Of a DNA stretch of 28,023 nucleotides, positions 13,178 through 24,866 are shown one piece after another. This DNA comes from a virus. Location of the stretch: positions 1 to 28,023 of the IMG/VR virus record IMGVR_UViG_3300010370_002556; one strand, written 5' to 3'. Under the pieces are notes generated by a model. That model was not told where the DNA came from. It worked only from the letters and a program-made list of their open reading frames with translations, and ran no database searches. The first letter of the stretch is position 1. Every line of letters starts with the position of its first letter. Made by a program: the position numbers and the translations under genes.

Positions 13178-13819
13178 ATGCAAACACAGGTGATTTCTTT
13201 TTATAGTGATGTAGATGAAACAACATATTATAGTGATCATGCCGTTCGTTTAAAAAAACAATTAGACGAATTAAATGTTCCATATGATATACGAGAGAAA
13301 CAATCATTAGGCTCATATCAAAAAAATTGTTTAAGCAAACCTAATTTTATCTATAAACTTTTAATTGAAAAACAAAAACCAGTGATATGGCTAGATATCG
13401 ATTCTAGCGTTTTAAAACCATTACATGTTTTTGATTCTTTTAATAATAATACAGATATGGTTTTTGCAGCTGGATGTCCACAAATAACCTGTGCTAAAGC
13501 CTCTCCGGTTTATTTTTCTTTTAATACTAAAGTATTAGAATTTTTACAAGAATGGATTAATTTAGCAAAAATTTCAACACAACAGGAAAAATGGTTTGAT
13601 CATGAAAGTTTAATGGATTTATTAATTTATTATTACAGTAATAAAAATTTAAATATTAAATTTTTAGGACCAGAATTTTGTGCTTGGCCGGGAAAATCTA
13701 ATAATAACACAGTTATTGAGATGGGTTTAGCAGATACAAAATCTAAAAAAGAATCTTTACGTAAAATGGGAATGCAAGAACACGTTATAGATTGGCAATC
13801 TCCAGGAAATATAAAATAA
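13178..13819 (+). CDS. Putative GT-A glycosyltransferase with DxD motif
   Basis: 213 aa. The N-terminus 'QVISFYSDVDETTYYSDHAVRLKKQLDELNVPYDI' and the central 'PVIWLDIDSSVLKP' (Asp73-x-Asp75) match the pattern of nucleotide-diphospho-sugar transferases, where the DxD binds Mn and the sugar nucleotide. 'FAAGCPQ' and 'YFSFNTKVLEFLQEWI' follow as in related GT-A enzymes, and a His-Glu (HESLMDLL) segment precedes the C-terminus. First gene of the AT-rich island; only two bases separate it from the regA stop. AGGA lies about 13 bases before the ATG. Donor and acceptor are unknown; a family assignment (GT77/DUF-type) would need a profile search. Confidence 0.68.
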   Translation: MQTQVISFYSDVDETTYYSDHAVRLKKQLDELNVPYDIREKQSLGSYQKNCLSKPNFIYKLLIEKQKPVIWLDIDSSVLKPLHVFDSFNNNTDMVFAAGCPQITCAKASPVYFSFNTKVLEFLQEWINLAKISTQQEKWFDHESLMDLLIYYYSNKNLNIKFLGPEFCAWPGKSNNNTVIEMGLADTKSKKESLRKMGMQEHVIDWQSPGNIK

Positions 13820-13822
13820 TAT

Positions 13823-14692
13823 ATGAATTCTATACAATGTTTAGGGGCTCCTTTTGACCCCATTAATCACTTTTCGTCTAACTCTAACCGTAAACCAAAA
13901 ACATTCAGTTGGTGTACTTCTTATACTCCAACACGAATATTTTTAGACAACACAATAGTTCAAGTTGTTTACAATAATATTCCCCTAAAACAAGGAGAAA
14001 AACGATACGGTTGGGTTTGCGAGTCTAGAAGTATTGTTCCAGAATTAAATGCTGCTTTGTATACTGAGCATAAATTTATTTTTGAAGCAGGAAAATTTGA
14101 AACTATCTTTACATCAGATAAAGAATTGTGTAAATTAAATTCAAAATTTAAATTTTGTTTAGCCGGTAGCAATCTACCATGGACAACAGAGACAAATTAT
14201 AAAATACACAATAAAACAAAATTGGTCTCAATGATTGCATCAGCTAAAGTTATAACATCTGGACATGCATTTAGGCATAGTCTTGCAGCTAAATTTAAAG
14301 ATAATTTAGATCTATATGGCGGAGCATTTGGTACCAAAAAGATAGGCATGTCTAAAGATCTCAATACTCAATGGCACAACAAAGATGAGGCATTAGTTGA
14401 TTACATGTTCTCTATAGTAACAGAGAATGACAAATATGATACGTATTATACAGAAAAAATAACAGATTGTTTTGCAAACGGAGTTATCCCTGTTTATTGG
14501 GGCCCGTCTGATATTGGTAACTACTTTAATATGGATGGTGTAATTATTTTAGATGATCAATTTGATATTAAAAATTTAACACCAGATCTATATTATTCTA
14601 AGATGAATGCAATAAAGGATAATATGCAACGCCTATACACCCTTGAGGGAGCTGACGATATGGTGTACAGATTAATACAGGAGAATATATGA
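13823..14692 (+). CDS. GT10-type (alpha-1,3-fucosyltransferase-like) glycosyltransferase
   Basis: 289 aa. The C-terminal half carries the GT10 signature: 'DYMFSIVTEN' (about 193-202), 'YYTEKITDCFANGVIPVYWG' (208-227) and 'DIGNYFN' correspond to the family pattern FxIxxEN...YVTEK...P-V-WG, which binds the GDP-sugar donor. The N-terminal half (1-130) is the variable acceptor domain, containing an odd 'CTSYTPTRIFLDN' segment. Known GT10 enzymes use GDP-L-fucose; some also accept GDP-L-galactose, which is what the epimerase at 22598-23608 would make. No membrane anchor is visible. It overlaps the next gene by 4 bases (ATGA). Confidence 0.78.
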   Translation: MNSIQCLGAPFDPINHFSSNSNRKPKTFSWCTSYTPTRIFLDNTIVQVVYNNIPLKQGEKRYGWVCESRSIVPELNAALYTEHKFIFEAGKFETIFTSDKELCKLNSKFKFCLAGSNLPWTTETNYKIHNKTKLVSMIASAKVITSGHAFRHSLAAKFKDNLDLYGGAFGTKKIGMSKDLNTQWHNKDEALVDYMFSIVTENDKYDTYYTEKITDCFANGVIPVYWGPSDIGNYFNMDGVIILDDQFDIKNLTPDLYYSKMNAIKDNMQRLYTLEGADDMVYRLIQENI

Positions 14693-15444
14693 AAACTGCA
14701 TTAATAAGACAGCCTGCTGGATTGGGAGATATATTTTATCTTCAAAAGGCCGCTAAAGTATTAGTAAAAAATAATTATAAAGTAATATGGCCACTAGCTA
14801 AAGGTTATGTGTATATTAAAGATTATATTGCAAGCGAAAATATAGAATACTGGGACGAAACAGAAGATTTTCCGTATAAAGAAATGTATGGGCATAACAA
14901 TATACTAAAACTTCATCCCAAAAATCAAGAAGAAACGATTTTTATACCATTTCAAGATGCTGACAGAATAATGGGAAATGTTCCCATGAAATCAAAATAT
15001 CCTTTGGTAGGAGTTAGCGACAACGATTGGCAACAGCATTTTGTGTTTACAAGAAATGTCGATAGAGAAGCACGTTTAAAAGAATATTATGGTTTAAAAG
15101 ATGGAGACGAATTTATATTCATAAACAATAGTTTTGGTTCTCCTCCTGATATCTTTACACGTGAAGTAAATATAACAGATTCTACAACCAAACAAATAAA
15201 AATAGATCCAACAAAATTAAATTATGATAATGGAGATCCGATACATCTTTTTGATTATTGTTGGATATTAGAACACGCAAAAGAAATTCATACAGTAGAA
15301 ACATCATTTTGCTATTTAATAGAAAAATTAAATACAACAGATAAATTATACATGTACTCACGAAAAATAAACGGTAGATCTAGATTTAATGATTTTAGTT
15401 ACATAGATCACATATATAAAAGAAAGTGGTCAACTATATTATGA
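14689..15444 (+). CDS. GT-B fold glycosyltransferase-like protein (heptosyltransferase-like)
   Basis: 251 aa. The N-terminus 'TALIRQPAGLGDIFYLQKAAKVLVKNNYKVIW' resembles the GLGDxxxxxP start of GT9/ADP-heptose transferases and related GT-B proteins. The C-terminal 'LFDYCWILEHAKEIHTVETSFCYLIEKL' resembles their 'A-xxxxxTSxxHL' donor-site helix. The middle is not recognised. It is shorter than true heptosyltransferases (about 320-350 aa), so it may be a reduced relative. AGGAG lies 6 bases before ATG; the start overlaps the previous gene and the stop overlaps the next (ATGA both times). Confidence 0.6.
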   Translation: MKTALIRQPAGLGDIFYLQKAAKVLVKNNYKVIWPLAKGYVYIKDYIASENIEYWDETEDFPYKEMYGHNNILKLHPKNQEETIFIPFQDADRIMGNVPMKSKYPLVGVSDNDWQQHFVFTRNVDREARLKEYYGLKDGDEFIFINNSFGSPPDIFTREVNITDSTTKQIKIDPTKLNYDNGDPIHLFDYCWILEHAKEIHTVETSFCYLIEKLNTTDKLYMYSRKINGRSRFNDFSYIDHIYKRKWSTIL

Positions 15445-16154
15445 TTAATTTAGAAAATGTAACTCTTCTAACAATAGATGGTTCTGGAAATGATCTTAAT
15501 GCTATAAAAGCATTAAAGTATAGTGCTAATAAAATAAAATTTGGAGCTATTAAATATATTACAAGTGGAGATTATATTCCAAATTTTTGTGAAACATTTA
15601 AAATATCTAAATTAACTTGGAATGAATATAACAAATTTTGTATTAAAAATTTAAATGAATATGTAAATACTGACTTTGTGTTATTAATACAATCTGATGG
15701 ATTTGTAATAAATCCAGATAAATGGGATTCTGAATTTTTAAATTATGATTATTTGGGAGCCCCGTGGGGAATGAATAATTTATCTTATAATATACCAAAA
15801 TTTCCAATAATACTAGAAGAATGTTTAAAAAATAAAAAAGTAAATCAAATAGGAAATGGTGGATTTACTTTACGTTCAAAATTATTATTAGAACACATAT
15901 CTACGATGTATAAACCAGAACATAATGGTTTACCAGAAGATGCATTGATATGCAATCTTTATAGAACGGTACTCCAAAATGCTGGATTAAAATTTACAAA
16001 TAATATAGATTTTGCTGCTACTTTTTCATGTGAGGCAACTGTTGTGGATGGAAAAATTTATTCTTCAGATAATAGTTTTGGATTTCATTGCGATGAAACT
16101 CATCCAGATAAAGTAAAACTATTAGATACAATTGAAGAAAAGGAAATATTATGA
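15441..16154 (+). CDS. DUF5672-type glycosyltransferase-like protein
   Basis: 237 aa from ATG 15441, which overlaps the previous stop (ATGA); an in-frame GTG at 15426 would also be possible but lies inside the upstream gene. Conserved pattern: 'VLLIQSDGFVINPDKW' (SDG 85-87), 'YDYLGAPWG' (102-110) and 'GNGGFTLRSK' (138-147), the set I recognise from DUF5672 proteins found in glycan clusters, plus 'PEDALICNLYR' and 'GFHC'. The pattern is GT-A-like, with SDG in the place of DxD. One of the most AT-rich genes here: bases 15601-15660 contain only 8 G/C by my count. Start of a run with the epimerase at 16151 (4-base overlap). Confidence 0.75.
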   Translation: MINLENVTLLTIDGSGNDLNAIKALKYSANKIKFGAIKYITSGDYIPNFCETFKISKLTWNEYNKFCIKNLNEYVNTDFVLLIQSDGFVINPDKWDSEFLNYDYLGAPWGMNNLSYNIPKFPIILEECLKNKKVNQIGNGGFTLRSKLLLEHISTMYKPEHNGLPEDALICNLYRTVLQNAGLKFTNNIDFAATFSCEATVVDGKIYSSDNSFGFHCDETHPDKVKLLDTIEEKEIL

Positions 16155-17191
16155 ATATTTTGATAACAGGTGTTGCTGGTCTTTTAGGTTCTAGATTAGC
16201 AGATTATTTAATAGAAAATGATATTGGTCAAGTTATTGGGATAGATGATTTATCTGGTGGTTATACTGAAAACGTAAATCCAAAAGTTAAATTTTATAAA
16301 CTAAATTTAGCAGATGATAATTATTTAGATAATATCTTTAAAAGATATAAACCAGATTATGTTTTTCATTTTGCAGCATATGCTGCAGAAGGATTGAGTC
16401 CATTTATTCGTTCGTTTAATTATCAAAATAACTTAATAGCTACTGCAAAAATTATCAATAATTGTATAACAAATGATGTAAAACGTTTAATATTTACCAG
16501 CAGTATGGCAGTATATGGAGAAGCTACTCCTCCATTCATTGAAACTTTTTCTCCAAATCCTATAGACCCGTATGGTGTGGCAAAATATGCATGTGAAATG
16601 GACATACAGATTGCTGGTCAACAACACGGATTAGATTGGTGTATAATTAGACCACATAACGTATACGGAGAAAAACAAAATATATGGGATAAATATAGAA
16701 ACGTTCTTGGTATTTGGATGTATCAAGCATTAAATAATAAACCATTAACAATTTATGGCGATGGCGAGCAAACCCGAGCCTTTAGTTATGTTGGAGATTG
16801 TGTTGAATATTTTTGGAAATGTGCTATAGATCCGGTTGCTTCTAAACAAATATTTAATATCGGTGGATTAAAAGAATATAAAATAAAAGATTCTGCCAAT
16901 ATTTTAGCAAATATTATTGGTAATGTAGAGATACAGCATTTACCAGCAAGACATGAAGTTAAGCATGCCTGGGTATCCCATGACAAAGCAAAATTTATTT
17001 TAGGTTTTGATGATTCTAAAACATCATTGGAAACAGGACTTATTAAAATGTGGAATTGGGCAAAGCAACAACCAAAAAGAGAACAATTTATCTGGGATGA
17101 ATATGAAGTAGATAAAGGAATATACGATTTTTGGAAAGTAAATAAAAAAAATAAAACATACATAAGTATGTTACCAGAATTAAAAATATAA
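16151..17191 (+). CDS. NAD-dependent sugar epimerase/dehydratase (GalE-like, extended SDR)
   Basis: 346 aa. Rossmann motif GVAGLLG (Gly7, Gly10, Gly13), acidic ribose-binding 'GIDDLSGG' (Asp32), 'FHFAAYAAEG', catalytic Ser in 'TSSMAVYGE' (117-124) and the YxxxK pair (Tyr141, Lys145) are intact. 'IRPHNVYG' and 'YGDGEQTRAFSYVGDCVEYFWK' are the usual substrate-domain blocks of UDP-glucose 4-epimerase-like enzymes. It probably interconverts or modifies a nucleotide sugar for the adjacent transferases. The C-terminal ~40 residues (EQFIWDEYEVDKGIYDFWKV...) extend beyond a usual GalE. AAGGA precedes the ATG. The substrate cannot be fixed from sequence alone. Confidence 0.85.
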   Translation: MNILITGVAGLLGSRLADYLIENDIGQVIGIDDLSGGYTENVNPKVKFYKLNLADDNYLDNIFKRYKPDYVFHFAAYAAEGLSPFIRSFNYQNNLIATAKIINNCITNDVKRLIFTSSMAVYGEATPPFIETFSPNPIDPYGVAKYACEMDIQIAGQQHGLDWCIIRPHNVYGEKQNIWDKYRNVLGIWMYQALNNKPLTIYGDGEQTRAFSYVGDCVEYFWKCAIDPVASKQIFNIGGLKEYKIKDSANILANIIGNVEIQHLPARHEVKHAWVSHDKAKFILGFDDSKTSLETGLIKMWNWAKQQPKREQFIWDEYEVDKGIYDFWKVNKKNKTYISMLPELKI

Positions 17192-17203
17192 GAAAATAAT
17201 ACA

Positions 17204-17830
17204 ATGAACATAAATGATAAAATTTTTAATTTTTTTTTAGAGTTAGTAAAAACAAAATCTGATATAAATGAACATCTAGCTACTCTTTTAGAGTATGCAT
17301 CAAAATGCGAACACATAACAGAATTGGGTTCAAGATGGATGGTATCAACCTATTCTTTTGTGTTAGGAAAACCTAAAACTATGATATCGGTGGATCTACA
17401 CCATCCATCAAAATGGGATAATCAATATAATACTCAAACTAGATTTGAAGATATAAAAGAATTTTGTGCAAACAATGATATCAATTATAAATTTATTCAA
17501 GGAAATACTTTAAATTTAAATATAGATACAACTGATCTATTATTTATTGATACTTTTCATATTTATAAACAACTCAAAAAAGAACTAGAATTGCACGGAA
17601 ATAAAGCAAAAAAATATATTATTTTTCACGACACAACTACATACGGAAGTACCGATGAAGATTCTGGAGATGAACAAATTGGAATCAATAATGAAGATAT
17701 TTTTATTGGATTAGAAAATAAAACAGGATTAAATCCAGCAATTAATGAATTCTTAGATGCAAATCCTCAATGGTCTATAGAAAAAATTTTTGAAAATTGT
17801 AATGGTTTGACTATCTTAAAAAGAAAATAA
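17204..17830 (+). CDS. Class I methyltransferase-like / cephalosporin-hydroxylase-like protein
   Basis: 208 aa. 'HITELGSRWMVSTYSFV' (ELGSR 40-44) is a SAM-binding motif I; 'ISVDLHHP' would be motif II; 'DLLFIDTFHIYKQLKKELEL' (about 111-130) and 'YIIFHDTTTYG' (139-148) match the 'FIDGxHxYxxxxxDL---G-IIxHD' pattern of methyltransferase_24/cephalosporin hydroxylase-like families, whose members often O-methylate sugars in glycan clusters. His-Asp (142-143) may bind metal. Weakly resembles the protein at 21374-22009. No Shine-Dalgarno is evident. Function in glycan methylation is inference from context. Confidence 0.68.
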   Translation: MNINDKIFNFFLELVKTKSDINEHLATLLEYASKCEHITELGSRWMVSTYSFVLGKPKTMISVDLHHPSKWDNQYNTQTRFEDIKEFCANNDINYKFIQGNTLNLNIDTTDLLFIDTFHIYKQLKKELELHGNKAKKYIIFHDTTTYGSTDEDSGDEQIGINNEDIFIGLENKTGLNPAINEFLDANPQWSIEKIFENCNGLTILKRK

Positions 17831-17835
17831 TTATT

Positions 17836-18741
17836 ATGAAAATTTTTAAACAAGACACAGATATAATACTTCAAGGACCCATATATAAAAATATTATTAA
17901 TGGTGTGGAAATTGATACATTAGATATTGCTAATGAATTTTCAAAAGCATGGTTTGTTAATAAGGTTATTGTATCTACTTGGATAGGAGAAACAATACCT
18001 AAAAAATATGAAAATAATAAAAAAATAGTAATAATACAGAGCGAAAAAATAACACCACATTATAATAATATGAATCTTCAATTAAAAAGTACCAAAGAGG
18101 GACTAAAATTATGTTCTTCTAAATACACTGTTAAGATGAGAAGTGATCAATATATATTTCCTAATTCATTAAATATGATGAAAGCATTTGTTGATTTTTA
18201 TATTAATGATAATATAATGTCTTATATAAACGGAAAAACACCAAAAGGGCATATTTTTGTCCATGGTATAGACGCAAATAATCCATATCTTGTTCAAGAC
18301 CATATTTTTTGGGGTTATACTGAAGATATGAACGAAGTATTTTCTTGTGATTATTTGGAACAATATATTTTAGATCTACCTCCAGCTGGAGACGATGGTT
18401 CTTATTATAAAGATAAATTAAATATGCCTTCTTGGATAGGTTTAAATTATATGAAAAAATTTGATACTAGAACCGAACATCACTTTAATAATCAATCTGA
18501 ATATTTGCATACAATTTCTTCTAAAAGAAATGATGCTATGACAGTTTATGCAGAAATACGTGATAAAATATTTAAAACATTTCCAAAAATTGATATGTTA
18601 TGGATAAAACGATATCCCATTGATGCTGGTCAATTTCCATATGCGATGTATATGATACAAAATCAATACTATTATGAAGAACAAGTAGAAAAAACAGAAT
18701 GCAAATTTAATCCACAAAAAGGATTTTCTAAATTTTTTTAA
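17836..18741 (+). CDS. WavE-family lipopolysaccharide-type glycosyltransferase
   Basis: 301 aa. 'DIILQGPIYKN' (QGP 13-15), 'NKVIVSTWIGE' (STW 47-49), 'NNMNLQLKSTKEGLKLCSSKYTVKMRSD' (up to 104) form the WavE pattern: QGP, then S-W, then N-QxxST--GL--A-xxYxxKxRSD. The family takes part in LPS core and O-antigen synthesis in bacteria, e.g. Vibrio. The C-terminal half (RTEHHFNNQSEYLHTISSKRN and 'MLWIKRYPIDAGQFPYAMY') is less familiar. It is not membrane-anchored. The stop codon TAA is part of the late-type octamer preceding the next gene. Confidence 0.78.
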   Translation: MKIFKQDTDIILQGPIYKNIINGVEIDTLDIANEFSKAWFVNKVIVSTWIGETIPKKYENNKKIVIIQSEKITPHYNNMNLQLKSTKEGLKLCSSKYTVKMRSDQYIFPNSLNMMKAFVDFYINDNIMSYINGKTPKGHIFVHGIDANNPYLVQDHIFWGYTEDMNEVFSCDYLEQYILDLPPAGDDGSYYKDKLNMPSWIGLNYMKKFDTRTEHHFNNQSEYLHTISSKRNDAMTVYAEIRDKIFKTFPKIDMLWIKRYPIDAGQFPYAMYMIQNQYYYEEQVEKTECKFNPQKGFSKFF

Positions 18742-18748
18742 ATAAATA
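18741..18748 (+). promoter_or_regulatory. Late-promoter-like octamer AATAAATA, 5 bases before ATG
   Basis: AATAAATA (7 of 8 to TATAAATA) starts at the last base of the upstream stop codon and ends 5 bases before the ATG at 18754. No Shine-Dalgarno is present; the region upstream is a T run. Same octamer-to-ATG gap as at 2047 and 24870. A chance match in AT-rich sequence is possible. Confidence 0.42.
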
Positions 18749-18753
18749 ATACC

Positions 18754-19458
18754 ATGAACAATCTACAATTATTTGCTGACGGAATAAAGCCCGATAAACA
18801 ATATATGGATACTATAATGGATTCCTACGGAATAGTAGGATATACTTGCAATCCAACATTAGTAAAACAATTTGTTCCGATGTCATATAAAGACTATTGC
18901 ACAAGTATAATAAAAAATTCTAGAAATTATTCTGTTTCTATACAAACATTATCTAGTAATTTAGAAGAAATATACCAACAGGCAAAAACAATAAGTTTGT
19001 GGGGAAATAATGTATATGTTAAAATTCCAGTAATAACAGAAAATAAACAAGACACTTCTGAGATTATAATAAAATTATTAGAAGAAGGAATAAAGATCAA
19101 CGTAACGTCTATTTTTACACCAGAACAAGTTGAAAGATTAATAAAAACTGGATTAAATAAGACTCATGATTGTATTTTATCTATTTTTTGTGGAAGAATT
19201 GCAGATACGGGATTAGTGCCAAATGACGTAATCTCTAAAATTAATGATAAATTACAAGAACGAGGAAATATTAAATTATTATGGGCAGGTAGTAGAAGTT
19301 CTTTAGATATACATTTTGCTGCACAATACTGTGATATAATAACTTTACCCCAAAGTATTATTGATAAATTAAAATTAAAAAGCAAATCTCTAGAAGAATA
19401 TACTCTAGAAACAGTAAAAATGTTTGCTAACGATAGTAAAATATTTACTTTAGATTAA
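18754..19458 (+). CDS. Transaldolase / fructose-6-phosphate aldolase family protein
   Basis: 234 aa, the size of the short TalC/FSA-type enzymes (about 220). 'LQLFADGIKPD' (Asp9), 'GYTCNPTLVKQF' (transaldolase TTNPxL block), 'YVKIPVI' with the Schiff-base lysine Lys90, 'INVTSIFTPEQV' and 'KLLWAGSRS' follow the family's order. Cyanophages carry talC to redirect host carbon flow, but here the gene is embedded in a glycan island and directly precedes a nucleotidyltransferase-phosphatase-kinase fusion. It may therefore make or cleave a keto-sugar phosphate that feeds nucleotide-sugar synthesis. That role is inference; an auxiliary metabolic role is the alternative. Confidence 0.82.
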   Translation: MNNLQLFADGIKPDKQYMDTIMDSYGIVGYTCNPTLVKQFVPMSYKDYCTSIIKNSRNYSVSIQTLSSNLEEIYQQAKTISLWGNNVYVKIPVITENKQDTSEIIIKLLEEGIKINVTSIFTPEQVERLIKTGLNKTHDCILSIFCGRIADTGLVPNDVISKINDKLQERGNIKLLWAGSRSSLDIHFAAQYCDIITLPQSIIDKLKLKSKSLEEYTLETVKMFANDSKIFTLD

Positions 19459-19473
19459 ATTAAAGAGGAATAA

Positions 19474-21342
19474 ATGAGCACAATAACTGTAGTATTTCCT
19501 ATGGGTGGAGAAGGACAACGATTTGGCAATAAGTTTAAACCATTTTTAAAAATATTTGATAAAACATTTATAGAATTAGCAATAAATCCTTTTTTAAAAC
19601 ATAAGGAATTGATTAAAGAATTTGTGTTTATTGTGAGAGAGGATCATTACAATCAATTTAATATAGAAAATAAATTCAAAGAATTTAATCTTCCAATACC
19701 ATATTCTATAAAAACAATAACAAAAACAAACAGCCCGATAGAAACAATCAATGAGTGGTTAAAAACTAATATACAAAATGTTATTTTTTGTGATTGTGAT
19801 CATTCTGTAGATGTAACACCAATATTTTCTAATTTAGAACACAAACACGATTGCATAATCATGGGGTATAATATTTTGATCGATGAAGTAGCAAGTTGGA
19901 GTATAGCTGCATCTTACAACGGAAAGGTAAATGCAATAGCAGAAAAACAAGTCCCAACAACTTCAGATCAAGATAAAATAAATGGAGTAATTGGTTGTTA
20001 TTATTTTAAAGAATACAGTGTACAAACGACAAATAACAAATACATTTCTGATGTTATATCAAATTTAATAAATCAAAATAAAGACGTACGAATAGTAGAG
20101 TGCAAAAAAGCAGATTTCTTTGGTGATCCAAAAAGATTAAATAATCTATACAAAGAAAAAAATGCAAACACTATTTTTTGTGACATTGATGGAACTATAA
20201 TAAAACACGAAAATATTCCAAATTATAAATCTGGATTTCAATTATTAGATGGAGCAAAAGAAAAAATAAAAGAGTGGAGAAAAGATAATAATTGTTTTAT
20301 AGTATTAACAACGAGTAGAGACGAGCAATTTAGACCAGAATTAGAATTACTATTAAAGAATAATGATATAATTTATGAGAATTTAGTAATGGGATTGCCT
20401 CCGGGCCCTCGTCATTTAATCAATGATAAAAAACCATACTCAAATAAAACCATGGCTTTGGCACACGAAGTTGAACGAGATGTTGGTATAAAAAATTTAA
20501 ATCTCGGTCATAGTATGGCTATTTTGCACGAACAAAATAATTTTATAGTTAAAACACTACCTGATAATTTTTCAGAATATCAAAAAAATAAATTTAAATC
20601 ACAATACGAATCAATGAAAAATATATCGGAATCTAATTATTCTTACTGTGTTCCTAAAATAGGCGAATTCAATAATAATCAATATTCAATGGAAAATTTA
20701 ATAGGTTATTGTGGTTTACATTTAGTAACAAATGATGAGAGATATACTATTTTACAAAAAGTATTTAATACAATCAAAGATTTGTATGATTTTACAACAC
20801 CTACTTCTGGATGGTTAGCTCAATATTTGGAAGAAAAAATATATTCAAAACAAAAAACTATAAATGATTTAGGATTAGAGTACGAATGTAAAGAAATATT
20901 TGATTTGATTAATAAATTAGATAAGAATAAATTACAACTATTAGAACCAAAAATGTTAACTAATTTTTATTTTGGTGATTTGACTTATGAAAACATATTA
21001 ACAAACGGAAAAGATTTTAAATTTATAGATTTTGATAATGACAATAGACCCGGAGTGGCAGAACAAGATTTGGGAAAATTATTACAATCATATTTAACAA
21101 AATATGAATGGTGGGATGAAGAAGAATCACCAGAATATGCATCAAAAGAATACGATCTTATAATAAGATTTTATGCAGATCTTTTAAATGAACCATATAT
21201 TCGCGTTGTTAATAAAGGAAATTTTTATTGTGCTATGCATCTATTTAGAATGATACCATATCAGGCAAATAAAAATATAAAAAGAGCTAAACGAGCTATA
21301 AATATGTGTAGAGTATTCCTTGAAAGCGTTAAAACTATTTAA
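19474..21342 (+). CDS. Three-domain fusion: nucleotidyltransferase - HAD phosphatase - APH-type kinase
   Basis: 622 aa. Domain 1 (1 to ~230): NTP_transferase, 'TVVFPMGGEGQRFGNKFKPFLKIFDK' (GxGxRFxxxxPK-like) and 'VIFCDCDHSVD' (metal-binding Asp residues). Domain 2 (~232-350): HAD phosphatase, DxD of CDIDGT (Asp237, Asp239), 'VLTTSRDEQ' and 'GPRHLINDKKP', the form found in capsule-synthesis phosphatases. Domain 3 (~350-622): aminoglycoside/choline kinase-like, 'FGDLTYENIL' (catalytic-loop Asp502, Asn507) and 'KFIDFDND' (Asp519, metal ligand). Kinase, phosphatase and nucleotidyltransferase in one chain could turn a sugar or polyol phosphate into an NDP-activated form. A good Shine-Dalgarno (AAAGAGGA) precedes the ATG. 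The substrate is unknown; heptose, glycerol-type or choline-type molecules are all possible. Confidence 0.85.
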   Translation: MSTITVVFPMGGEGQRFGNKFKPFLKIFDKTFIELAINPFLKHKELIKEFVFIVREDHYNQFNIENKFKEFNLPIPYSIKTITKTNSPIETINEWLKTNIQNVIFCDCDHSVDVTPIFSNLEHKHDCIIMGYNILIDEVASWSIAASYNGKVNAIAEKQVPTTSDQDKINGVIGCYYFKEYSVQTTNNKYISDVISNLINQNKDVRIVECKKADFFGDPKRLNNLYKEKNANTIFCDIDGTIIKHENIPNYKSGFQLLDGAKEKIKEWRKDNNCFIVLTTSRDEQFRPELELLLKNNDIIYENLVMGLPPGPRHLINDKKPYSNKTMALAHEVERDVGIKNLNLGHSMAILHEQNNFIVKTLPDNFSEYQKNKFKSQYESMKNISESNYSYCVPKIGEFNNNQYSMENLIGYCGLHLVTNDERYTILQKVFNTIKDLYDFTTPTSGWLAQYLEEKIYSKQKTINDLGLEYECKEIFDLINKLDKNKLQLLEPKMLTNFYFGDLTYENILTNGKDFKFIDFDNDNRPGVAEQDLGKLLQSYLTKYEWWDEEESPEYASKEYDLIIRFYADLLNEPYIRVVNKGNFYCAMHLFRMIPYQANKNIKRAKRAINMCRVFLESVKTI

Positions 21343-21373
21343 ATGATTGCTTCTAAAATAGAAAGTACTAATG

Positions 21374-22009
21374 ATGTTAAATTTTAATAAATTACACGGA
21401 AATGCATTTTCAGAAAATCATTTTAACTTTGATGTTGATTGTGATGCCCTTATGTCTGTTAATACAAGAATATTAGCAGGAGGAGCATCTCAAGCATTTT
21501 CTGCATTTAAATTACTAGAAAATCTTATAGTAACAGAAAAACCAGAATATGTGGTTGAAATAGGCTCCCAAAAAGGAGGCTTATCGGTATATCTTGCAAC
21601 CACGGCGTGTGTTAGTGAACAGTTTTTATTTCATACATTTGAAATAAATAAAACTGCTTGGTATGATAGAGCAAATGAAGGTGCAGGTCATTGGTTTGAA
21701 AAGATGGAAACGATATGCCCATATTGTAAATCGTTTGAGATGAATATTTTTTCTGAAATTGCTCGTGATATTATCATAGAAAATATTAAAAAATATAAAA
21801 CATTAATAATATCTGATGGTGGAAATAAACCTTTAGAAATACAAATATATTCACAATTTTTAAAACCGGGAGATTTGATAATGGGCCATGATTTTGGTAT
21901 AGAAATTCATGACTTTATGATAGATAAAACGGTTTTAGAAGAATTTCAACCATGGTCTGATAGATTTATGAACAGTGGAACAACTTTTAAAGTATTTAAG
22001 AAAAAATAA
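21374..22009 (+). CDS. Class I methyltransferase-like / cephalosporin-hydroxylase-like protein
   Basis: 211 aa from the second of two tandem ATGs (21371 and 21374; either may be used). 'EYVVEIGSQKGGLSVYLATTA' is a SAM-binding motif I (EIGSxxGG), 'HTFEINKTAWYD' motif II, and 'TLIISDGGNKPLEIQIYSQFLKPGDLIMGHDFG' matches the 'ISDG-NK---E---Y---LKPGDIIMVHDF' block of cephalosporin-hydroxylase-like proteins. A CPYC pair lies in the middle. The family includes sugar O-methyltransferases of polysaccharide clusters. No Shine-Dalgarno is clear in the 31-base gap upstream. The substrate is unknown. Confidence 0.7.
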   Translation: MLNFNKLHGNAFSENHFNFDVDCDALMSVNTRILAGGASQAFSAFKLLENLIVTEKPEYVVEIGSQKGGLSVYLATTACVSEQFLFHTFEINKTAWYDRANEGAGHWFEKMETICPYCKSFEMNIFSEIARDIIIENIKKYKTLIISDGGNKPLEIQIYSQFLKPGDLIMGHDFGIEIHDFMIDKTVLEEFQPWSDRFMNSGTTFKVFKKK

Positions 22010-22010
22010 A

Positions 22011-22577
22011 ATGAATTCAAATATTAATAACAACCATGATGCATTTTCTAAAATTTTAAACGAAAATTTAGAAAAAATTAGTAGATTAAAAGATATAACT
22101 TCTGCAATTGAAGCAGGTACCTATCGTGGGGATAATGCTGTTAGATTAGCAACTATGTTTGAAGTTGTAGAAACAATAGAATTATATCCAGACTATAATC
22201 CATATGATGGCAAATCATTAAGAGAAGTTCACGAAAATATAAAAAAACAACATCCAAATATCAATTTTATATACGATAATAGTGTAAATGCTCTAAAAAC
22301 ATTACTAACTGATAATCCCGATACTTGTTATTTTATATTATTAGATGCACATACAGCAAATTATTCTCCTATGATTGACGAATTAAATGCTATAAAAACT
22401 TACAGCAAAAGAAATGATCATATAATAATGATTGATGATTGTAGATTTTTATCCAAAAATGGATTTTATACCGGTTATCCTACGTTTGAAGAAATGCAAA
22501 CAGCAATTTTAAATATCAATCCTAATTATGTGATAGAAAATACTAAAAAAGGAAATGATATTCATTTAATTTACTGA
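22011..22577 (+). CDS. Class I methyltransferase-like protein
   Basis: 188 aa from ATG 22011, one base after the previous stop; an earlier in-frame ATG (21975) lies inside the upstream gene and was rejected. 'TSAIEAGTYRGDNAVRLATMF' (EAGTYRG 34-40) is a SAM motif I, 'VVETIELYPDY' the acidic motif II, and 'YFILLDAHTANYSPMIDEL' (LDAH 111-114) with 'DHIIMIDDCR' gives the metal/acceptor pattern of small-molecule methyltransferases. With the genes at 17204 and 21374 it makes three Rossmann methyltransferase-like proteins in one island. Its stop codon lies in the GATAAATA octamer upstream of the epimerase. Confidence 0.66.
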   Translation: MNSNINNNHDAFSKILNENLEKISRLKDITSAIEAGTYRGDNAVRLATMFEVVETIELYPDYNPYDGKSLREVHENIKKQHPNINFIYDNSVNALKTLLTDNPDTCYFILLDAHTANYSPMIDELNAIKTYSKRNDHIIMIDDCRFLSKNGFYTGYPTFEEMQTAILNINPNYVIENTKKGNDIHLIY

Positions 22578-22583
22578 TAAATA
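22576..22583 (+). promoter_or_regulatory. Late-promoter-like octamer GATAAATA before the epimerase
   Basis: GATAAATA (7 of 8 to the late consensus) overlaps the upstream stop and lies 14 bases before the ATG at 22598. A Shine-Dalgarno (GAGGTGAT, from 22587) lies between the octamer and the ATG, so this gene has a conventional ribosome binding site, unlike the genes with 5-6-base spacing. Confidence 0.45.
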
Positions 22584-22597
22584 CTTGAGGTGATATT

Positions 22598-23608
22598 ATG
22601 AAAAATGCATTAGTATTAGGTGGCGGTGGATTTATTGGTTCTCATCTTGTAAAACGTTTAAAACAAGAGGGCTATTGGGTTCGTGTTGTTGATTTAAAAA
22701 TGCCAGAGTTTGCTCCAACGCAAGCAGATCATTTTATCGTTGGTGATTTAAGAAGCCAAAAAACATGTGATGATGCGTTTGCTCACCGTCAGTTTGACGA
22801 AGTGTATCAGCTTGCGGCAGATATGGGTGGAGCTGGGTACATTTTTACAGGAGAAAACGATGCAAATATCATGCACAATTCTGCCCTTATTAACCTCAAT
22901 ATAGTAGAACGGTGTCTAGCAAATAAAGTTGGAAAGGTGTTTTATTCTTCGTCGGCATGTATGTATCCTGCATACAATCAAGAAGATCCAGATAATCCTA
23001 AATGTTCAGAAGATTCTGCGTATCCTGCAGCACCAGACAGCGAATACGGTTGGGAGAAACTGTTTAGTGAAAGACTGTACCTAGCATTTGCTAGAAATTA
23101 TGGTATGAATGTTCGAGTTGCTCGTTACCATAATATTTTTGGCCCAGAAGGAACGTGGGATGGTGGAAAAGAAAAAGCACCAGCAGCTCTTTGTCGTAAA
23201 GTAGCTCAAGCAAAAAACGGAACACATATTGATGTGTGGGGAGACGGAAAACAAACCCGATCATTCTTGTACATAGATGAATGTATAGAAGCAACTCGTC
23301 GTTTAATGAATTCTGATTTTACTGGACCCGTAAATATCGGATCTGAAGAAATGATTACAATCAATGATCTAGCAAAAATGGTTATTAATATTTCCAAGAA
23401 AGATCTGTCTGTGAATAATATTGCTGGACCTGTGGGAGTTCGTGGTCGTAATTCAGATAATAAATTATATGCAGAGAAAATAGGATGGCAACCTTCACAA
23501 ACTTTATATGATGGTATACAAAAAACATACGCTTGGATAAAATCTAAAGTAGATCGAAAAAGCACATCTACTGCTGACCTAGATATGATAGATCGATTTG
23601 CTAATTAA
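22598..23608 (+). CDS. GDP-mannose 3,5-epimerase (extended SDR)
   Basis: 336 aa. The closest family I can recall is plant GDP-D-mannose 3,5-epimerase, which converts GDP-mannose to GDP-L-galactose (and GDP-L-gulose). Shared blocks: 'LAADMGGAGYI', 'YSSSACMYP', 'SEYGWEKLFSE', 'RYHNIFGPEGTWDGGKEKAPAALCRK', 'WGDGKQTRSFLYIDECIEATRRL', 'PVNIGSEEM' and 'GVRGRNSDN'. Counting from the start, the Arabidopsis catalytic residues Cys145, Tyr174, Lys178 and Lys217 correspond to Cys121, Tyr150, Lys154 and Lys193: a constant offset of 24. NAD-binding glycines are Gly8, Gly11 and Gly14. A Shine-Dalgarno (GAGGTGAT) fixes the start. Codon use is less AT-rich than in the rest of the island, hinting at a separate origin. 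The GT10-type enzyme at 13823 is a candidate user of the product. Confidence 0.88.
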   Translation: MKNALVLGGGGFIGSHLVKRLKQEGYWVRVVDLKMPEFAPTQADHFIVGDLRSQKTCDDAFAHRQFDEVYQLAADMGGAGYIFTGENDANIMHNSALINLNIVERCLANKVGKVFYSSSACMYPAYNQEDPDNPKCSEDSAYPAAPDSEYGWEKLFSERLYLAFARNYGMNVRVARYHNIFGPEGTWDGGKEKAPAALCRKVAQAKNGTHIDVWGDGKQTRSFLYIDECIEATRRLMNSDFTGPVNIGSEEMITINDLAKMVINISKKDLSVNNIAGPVGVRGRNSDNKLYAEKIGWQPSQTLYDGIQKTYAWIKSKVDRKSTSTADLDMIDRFAN

Positions 23609-23624
23609 CTCAGGAGCTATATTA

Positions 23625-24866
23625 ATGCCTAAATTATGTTTGTCTATGATCGTAAAAAATGAAACTCACATTATTAAAGAGTGCTTTGACTCCATATATA
23701 AACATATTGACTATTGGGTTATTGTAGATACGGGATCTACGGATGGAACTCAAGAATTAATTAAAAATTATTTTGCTGAAAAAGGAATACCCGGCGAACT
23801 TCACGAACGTCCTTGGGTTAGCTTTGGTCACAATAGAAGCGAAGCTTTGGCTTTGTGTGATGGTAAAGCCGACTGGGCATGGATGATTGATGCAGATGAT
23901 TACATTGAAGGTTCTTTTAGTTTTCCTCCAGAAATACCACAAGAAGTTGACGGTTGGGCATTGAAGTTTGGTAGAGCAGAATTCAGTTGGTGGAGAACTC
24001 AAATTTTTCGTACTGGACGGGGATGGAAATATATTGGAGTTCTGCACGAATACCCCACAATAGAACCCGGTCCTCCTAAAATTGGAAAAATAGAGGGAGA
24101 ATATAGGATTGTGGCTCGTACTATGGGAGCTAGAAATGTAAACATAACTCCTGTAGAAAAATATAAAAAAGATGCTGAAGTTTTAGAAAATGCTTTAAAA
24201 GAAGAACCGAATAATATTCGTTATCAGTTTTATCTTGCACAAAGTTATTTCGATTCTCAACAATGGGAAAAGGCAGAAGAAGCGTATAAAAAGCGCATAG
24301 AAATGGGTGGTTGGGAAGAAGAGCAGTTCTATTCTGCTTTTCGTATAGGAATGTGCAGAGGTCTATTGAATAGACCTTGGGAAACAATTCAGCAGGGGTT
24401 CTTAGAAGCATGGGAACTAAGACCTACCCGAGCAGAGCCTCTATACCAGATAGCAAGAGTTTATCGTTTAATGGGCCATCCAAAATTGGGTTTCCTTTTT
24501 GCTAGAATGGCTTCAGAAATTCCATATCCACAAGACGATATTCTTTTCGTTCAGGACGACGTTTATAAGTATGGAATTTTAGACGAAATAGGTTCTACCG
24601 CATTTTATGCAGGTAAACCTCATATGGGTTACGCTGCTTGTAAAAAATTATTAGCAGAAAATCGTATGCCTCAAGAGCATGTGGAAAGAGTTCAAACAAA
24701 TTTAAATCAATATATAAAATTCTTTGAACACACCAACCAAATGGAAGCTGTACGCCAAATGGATGAACAAGTAAAACAACAAATGCAAAGAATACCACAA
24801 CCCCCTCCTCAGGTACTGCAAAAATCAAAAAAGTTTAAACAAAGACCAAAAGGCGTAAGTCGTTAA
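23625..24866 (+). CDS. GT2 glycosyltransferase with C-terminal TPR-like helical repeats
   Basis: 413 aa from ATG 23625, preceded by CAGGAG; an in-frame TTG at 23598 lies inside the upstream gene. The N-terminal GT-A domain has 'LCLSMIVKNETHIIKECFDSI', 'DYWVIVDTGSTDGTQELI' (TGSTDGT 36-42) and the DxD-type 'WMIDADDYI' (89-92), the GT2 nucleotide- and metal-binding set. Residues about 180-330 are helix pairs such as 'ALKEEPNNIRYQFYLAQSYFDSQQWEKAEEAYKKRIEM', typical of TPR repeats. The tail is Gln/Pro/Lys-rich. GT2-TPR proteins in T4-like marine phages commonly sit next to tail fibre genes, as here, so glycosylation of a virion protein is a reasonable guess. LPS modification is the alternative. 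Confidence 0.82.
   Translation: MPKLCLSMIVKNETHIIKECFDSIYKHIDYWVIVDTGSTDGTQELIKNYFAEKGIPGELHERPWVSFGHNRSEALALCDGKADWAWMIDADDYIEGSFSFPPEIPQEVDGWALKFGRAEFSWWRTQIFRTGRGWKYIGVLHEYPTIEPGPPKIGKIEGEYRIVARTMGARNVNITPVEKYKKDAEVLENALKEEPNNIRYQFYLAQSYFDSQQWEKAEEAYKKRIEMGGWEEEQFYSAFRIGMCRGLLNRPWETIQQGFLEAWELRPTRAEPLYQIARVYRLMGHPKLGFLFARMASEIPYPQDDILFVQDDVYKYGILDEIGSTAFYAGKPHMGYAACKKLLAENRMPQEHVERVQTNLNQYIKFFEHTNQMEAVRQMDEQVKQQMQRIPQPPPQVLQKSKKFKQRPKGVSR

Follow-up and report, generated by a model that had tools for sequence, protein, structure and literature searches.

What do two adjacent viral genes accomplish when one encodes an aldolase and the other a protein that unites a nucleotidyltransferase (NTase), a HAD phosphatase and an APH-type kinase? 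The question is raised by IMG/VR virus record IMGVR_UViG_3300010370_002556, of which positions 1 to 28,023 (28,023 bases; hereafter the window) were analysed, and whose aldolase gene, fusion gene, WavE-like gene and sugar island, described below, all lie on the plus strand. The first gene, at 18754..19458, specifies a class I aldolase of the TAL/FSA family (234 aa), and the second, at 19474..21342, starts 15 bases past it and specifies the three-domain fusion (622 aa). A preliminary description of this DNA had placed both reading frames correctly and had proposed a compact nucleotide-sugar pathway akin to that for nucleoside diphosphate (NDP)-heptose. We find that these two genes are a real and conserved unit. 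Comparative sequence evidence further suggests that the two genes probably constitute a self-contained nucleotide-sugar module, and that the activated sugar is most likely seven-carbon.

The aldolase and the trifunctional protein

The aldolase is recognised by the Pfam TAL_FSA model (2.6e-27), and its K90 aligns with the Schiff-base lysine of solved transaldolases in the PDB, as the preliminary description had assigned it. The TAL/FSA core is intact, with D9, N33, K90, N116, T118 and S143 invariant in a residue table whose rows were not fully deduplicated. The closest NCBIfam model, TIGR02134 'transald_staph', was matched at 1.3e-53 but under the model cut-off. At the variable positions of the active site the window protein has Q64 at the acid-base position and F145, and it keeps the phosphate-binding residues R148 and R181. 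A host-like transaldolase was also seen in an unverified 'Staphylococcus phage' record (OR844993.1, 1501-2772), which is possibly host DNA.

Searched as a single sequence, the window fusion is nearly invisible to Pfam and the PDB, and patterns derived from it alone did not find the viral relatives; these were detectable with alignment-based queries and a 22-member profile. Among the 22 aligned relatives, 8 match NTP_transf_3 (best 8.6e-10), 10 match HAD families (best 6e-6) and 9 match APH (PF01636; best 2.3e-6). The NTase domain (19474..20160) has a sugar-1-phosphate nucleotidylyltransferase fold with the motifs GGEGQRF, CDCD and FFGD; when the AlphaFold2 model of the fusion (mean predicted local distance difference test score, pLDDT, of 86) was submitted to Foldseek, its N-terminal part retrieved RmlA/GalU-type enzymes and Vibrio cholerae 4evw (E ~1e-11), and the domain profile also matched 4evw (1.2e-5). 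The HAD domain (20161..20493; DIDGT, T280, N317-D318-K320-P321) resembles PNKP and capsule phosphatases, giving weak PNKP/HAD-IIIC matches; it matched no GmhB model, and the Cys-rich zinc loop of GmhB is not in its sequence. The APH/choline-kinase-like domain (20494..21339) carries K360, E407, GD502LTxEN507 and D519, and D502, N507 and D519, the motif of that superfamily, are present in 22/22 relatives. The preliminary description thus named the right domains, and catalytic residues are kept in all three of them across the alignment; its claim that every key residue is present falls short at one position, where the residue preceding the kinase catalytic Asp is Phe in the window and His in 20/22 relatives. 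Matches of the kinase profile to the PDB are weak and protein-kinase-like, and they do not point to a substrate class. A model of the kinase domain folded from its single sequence reached a pLDDT of 40 and was discarded.

The profile scan recovered 25 full or partial fusions in IMG/VR viral contigs. These loci were picked by similarity to the query, as the best 80 per scan, from records that may be incomplete, and neighbours were called by phmmer with single queries and by selected family searches. Once redundancy is removed, each viral locus with an intact flank on the relevant side has the aldolase directly beside the fusion, in either order and with gaps of -23 to +15 nucleotides (-74 for an aldolase truncated at the end of its contig); in two loci (L198, L213) the aldolase is not present, and the contig ends on that side. 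The same pair occurs in two bacterial metagenome-assembled genomes (MAGs), one from the Legionellales (L090) and one alphaproteobacterial (L091). Genome sampling suggests that the fusion is rare in cells (1/369 gammaproteobacterial and 1/385 alphaproteobacterial genomes sampled, each being the query's own source genome). That the frames and their adjacency are kept in independent viruses and bacteria indicates that the pairing is not due to chance. Linkage to an unrelated pathway and loss of catalytic residues were both looked for, and neither was found. In another virus record (L006; IMG/VR 3300016659_000202), the two genes, 57-59% identical overall to those of the window, overlap by 4 nucleotides 3' of the head-protein gene. 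No further sugar gene was recognised in the stretch read, which suggests that the pair is sufficient. We found no description of the aldolase-fusion pairing in the open-access literature searched.

The association extends to loci where the fusion itself is broken up. One locus (L112) encodes a HAD-APH protein together with a separate NTase, another (L214) an NTase-APH protein with a separate HAD, and in the alphaproteobacterial MAG (L091:7989-10831) a fusion with a degenerate NTase motif is followed by an intact, separate NTase, an apparent duplication and hand-over of NTase function. Such complementation indicates that the three activities and the aldolase stay together even where the single chain does not.

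Heptose-like genes beside sister aldolases

Which sugar the module handles is suggested by aldolase relatives that have no fusion beside them. The best 80 aldolase relatives in viral contigs were inspected for neighbours; after removal of redundancy, 31 fusion-free loci had 3.5 kb or more of sequence on either side. A GmhA-like SIS isomerase and an HddA-like GHMP kinase are both present in 27/31; the others have HddA only (1), SIS only (2) or neither (1), and GmhB-like HADs are present where checked. All of these phage SIS, HddA and GmhB-like proteins score under the curated heptose-model cut-offs, so that 'heptose-like' is the safe wording. At L147:6950-8008, a single phage protein of 352 aa adjoining the aldolase is a fusion of a SIS isomerase with a GmhB-like HAD.

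The heptose idea put forward in the preliminary description thereby gains independent genomic support, and its suggested co-occurrence with GmhA-like isomerases holds for these fusion-free loci. It does not hold for virus records that carry the fusion. No SIS or HddA gene lies within 6 kb of the fusion in any of the 18 full-flank loci; searches with PF13580 and PF01380 detected no SIS in the window, in agreement with the missing isomerase noted earlier, or in the 18 further virus records with the fusion, and an HddA search was negative in all fusion-bearing virus records, the window included, though these records may be fragments. Among viruses, the fusion and the GmhA/HddA set are thus mutually exclusive. 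The kinase is APH-type and, as had been remarked, unlike the known heptose kinase; together with the different HAD family and the altered aldolase active site considered below, this leaves the original proposal of a heptose pathway standing only in part.

A phylogenetic tree connects the two gene arrangements. The fusion-linked aldolase of the Legionellales MAG is sister to a SIS/HddA-linked aldolase (support 100/95), which implies that both modules have a common aldolase type; in this MAG a GmhA-like SIS (4.3e-22) lies in the same cluster, 6.1 kb from the fusion. The window aldolase groups with other fusion-linked phage aldolases in a clade of 16 members (99/88), in which that of L214 is basal. 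Given sister aldolases with GmhA/HddA neighbours and fusion-bearing virus records with neither, the fusion seems to have been swapped in phages for the heptose-type activation set.

A proposed pathway and its alternatives

In the pathway that we propose, aldol transfer through the Schiff base of the aldolase would yield a keto-sugar phosphate, the product in the ancestral form most likely being sedoheptulose 7-phosphate. On the fusion, the HAD domain would then strip the terminal phosphate, the APH-type kinase would phosphorylate the anomeric position, and the NTase would join the resulting sugar phosphate to a nucleoside monophosphate. A neighbouring glycosyltransferase such as WavE could use the activated sugar, probably altering the surface of the infected host. 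We infer the order of reactions, with the HAD before the kinase, as well as the C7 substrate, the nucleotide and the final acceptor; the same three activities operate in that order in MupP (a HAD), AmgK and MurU (PMC5371407).

Several observations weigh against this scheme, at least in its seven-carbon form. Whereas the acid-base residue is Glu in 76/76 SIS/HddA-linked aldolase rows, it is Gln in 18/26 fusion-linked rows, the window among them, with Phe145 unchanged; this switch may have been a single event. R148, retained in the window, is lost in 7/26 fusion-linked rows, and the R181 position is Gln in 13/26. Aldolase and transaldolase activity are reported to be interconvertible by exchange of residues around the catalytic water, and weaker phosphate binding at the acceptor site (R134 variants among those listed) to allow unphosphorylated aldehydes to be accepted too (PMC13259622); spacing and alignment place R134 at the window's R148. 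The acid-base Gln of the window's clade and the Arg lost by many of its members therefore imply that the product may not be sedoheptulose 7-phosphate, and could be a ketose or another sugar. Moreover, clustering of neighbours, done in search of a recurrent isomerase beside the fusion, found none, and with no isomerase in the fusion-bearing virus records an aldose route would be incomplete without the host.

These considerations divide the proposed pathway into two versions of similar weight, each of which we advance tentatively. In the first, the host's GmhA would isomerise sedoheptulose 7-phosphate raised by the aldolase, and the fusion would stand in for HddA, GmhB and HddC to yield a canonical-type NDP-D,D-heptose. 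The heptose-type neighbours of the sister aldolases speak for this version, as do the GmhA-like SIS in the L090 cluster and a split NTase-HAD/APH set in Helicobacter that adjoins a true GmhA scoring over the cut-off. It is made doubtful by the distribution of GmhA-like genes, which occur in most HddA-type phage loci but in 0 fusion-type virus records, by the alphaproteobacterial pair-bearing MAG, in which no SIS_2 protein was detectable (the MAG may be incomplete), and by the many fusion-linked aldolases that are without phosphate-binding arginines.

In the second, equally possible version, the marine-phage fusion would activate the aldolase's ketose without isomerisation, forming an NDP-ketose (e.g. 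NDP-sedoheptulose or NDP-fructose) for surface glycans. The finding of an isomerase in 0 fusion-bearing virus records fits this version, as does the two-gene cassette of L006, with no other sugar genes nearby. It would also account for the Glu-to-Gln change, which affects a position by which aldolases and transaldolases can be told apart (PMC13259622), and for the confinement of this change and of the phosphate-binding Arg loss to the fusion-linked clade. Yet the fusion also pairs with E-type aldolases having intact phosphate sites, and the substrate is not demonstrable by sequence alone. To our knowledge, anomeric ketose kinases of the APH fold have few precedents, which likewise counts against direct activation of a ketose.

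Synthesis of CDP-choline or another CDP-alcohol, with the HAD as an accessory, is unlikely. Fusions of an APH kinase and an NTase are known for choline, as in Treponema LicCA, and one member of the alignment matches Choline_kinase at 0.0028; however, choline can be activated without an aldolase or a phosphatase, and these loci always have the aldolase alongside and a HAD, be it in place or re-supplied. Less probable still is a role of the cyanophage TalC type, in which the aldolase, as an ordinary metabolic gene of phages, would boost the pentose phosphate pathway of the host and would have nothing to do with its neighbour. TalC is common in cyanophages (PMC9599517), but the window aldolase has no cyanophage TalC match at E 1e-5, and nearly all of its relatives adjoin sugar-activation genes.

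Phage setting and comparison with known systems

The source of the window is a marine T4-like phage. A T4-like block encodes the major head protein, SbcCD-like gp46/47, the clamp, the clamp loader and RegA; the head protein is nearest, among the matches listed, to those of Synechococcus T4-like phages (~55% identity), and collagen-like tail-fibre genes are also present. Inserted between regA and the tail-fibre genes is a surface-sugar island (13178..24866) that contains GT10, DUF5672, two epimerase/dehydratases, WavE, methyltransferases and GT2 in addition to the pair. The WavE-like protein (17836..18741; PF07507, 6.4e-11) is encoded immediately 5' of the aldolase and is a candidate user of the activated sugar; its relatives lie directly upstream of the aldolase in L195 and L197 and inside the island in L204. 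A Vibrio lipopolysaccharide-core fructose link, prompted by the 4evw match and WavE, had no support in the literature searched, and an analogy with the Campylobacter fructose branch was found not to apply. The gene at 14689-15444, previously described as GT-B heptosyltransferase-like, has no Pfam or PHROGs match, so that this assignment was not borne out; it has a relative in L204 (1e-41). Like the genes at 13178-13819 and 17204-17830 in the island, it could be placed in no convincing family. The methyltransferase and epimerase 3' of the pair (21371-23608) have close relatives at L204:12030-13705 (1e-68, 2e-140), which hints at another mobile block for sugar modification.

If correct, our proposal would identify a compact, mobile and previously undescribed way to a nucleotide-sugar that makes clear enzymatic predictions, would associate a transaldolase subfamily with the making of surface sugars instead of with the energy metabolism of the host, and would offer a small two-protein system for testing the activation of unusual, perhaps keto-, sugars.

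Among known systems, the GmhA/HddA/GmhB/HddC pathway for NDP-heptose likewise combines a kinase, a phosphatase and an NTase, draws its sugar from sedoheptulose 7-phosphate, and accompanies sister aldolases in a divergent version. The fusion system differs in that it is without an isomerase in virus records and always has an aldolase attached, that its kinase is APH rather than GHMP and its HAD PNKP/capsule-like without the zinc loop, and that all three domains reside in one chain; the window fusion matched no NCBIfam NTase model, HddC and HldE included, its fold being that of sugar-1-phosphate NTases in general. These comparisons do not support membership of the module in the known NDP-heptose pathway. 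In Helicobacter bilis-group loci (L101:7443-11111, L102:4657-8135), an APH kinase, an epimerase and an NTase-HAD fusion precede the GmhA gene, and at L116:9659-10378 a phage capsule-phosphatase-like HAD (EcbF/BcbF) is fused to a TagD/HldE-type cytidylyltransferase. The MupP/AmgK/MurU route of Pseudomonas N-acetylmuramic acid recycling resembles the proposal in proceeding from a HAD phosphatase through an anomeric sugar kinase to an NTase, but it consists of three separate proteins acting on N-acetylmuramic acid without an aldolase, and the window fusion matched neither the MurU nor the MupP model of NCBIfam. Treponema LicCA, a choline kinase-cytidylyltransferase fusion, shares the NTase and the APH-superfamily kinase and has neither HAD nor aldolase. 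Cyanophage TalC is, like the window aldolase, a TAL/FSA-superfamily protein of T4-like phages, but it belongs to another subfamily, serves the pentose phosphate pathway and is not linked to NTase, HAD or kinase genes.

A further parallel is provided by phage modules composed of an NTase-APH protein (~515 aa), sometimes with an N-terminal cupin, and a HAD (~119 aa), found in loci L007-L085 (e.g. L014:1023-5339, L020:1532-5363) and in Synechococcus phage S-SRM01. These modules comprise the same three superfamilies, lie in surface-sugar islands and include one extra sugar-phosphate enzyme; they differ in domain order and splitting, have no known function, and have as partner not a transaldolase but a KbaZ/GatZ-like barrel (33 nonredundant loci) or a SIS protein (5), never both, with an AroE-like dehydrogenase in 23 loci. 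At L087:9138-10136, a member of a ~330-aa family with a weak KbaZ/GatZ match (PF08013, 3e-4), possibly an uncharacterised sugar-phosphate enzyme, adjoins HAD and NTase-APH genes. The window kinase is homologous to those of the phage NTase-APH proteins (hhalign 98.8%, 7.6e-17), and this homology, together with the parallel composition, indicates that an arrangement of one sugar-phosphate enzyme with a HAD, an APH kinase and an NTase recurs with different first enzymes.
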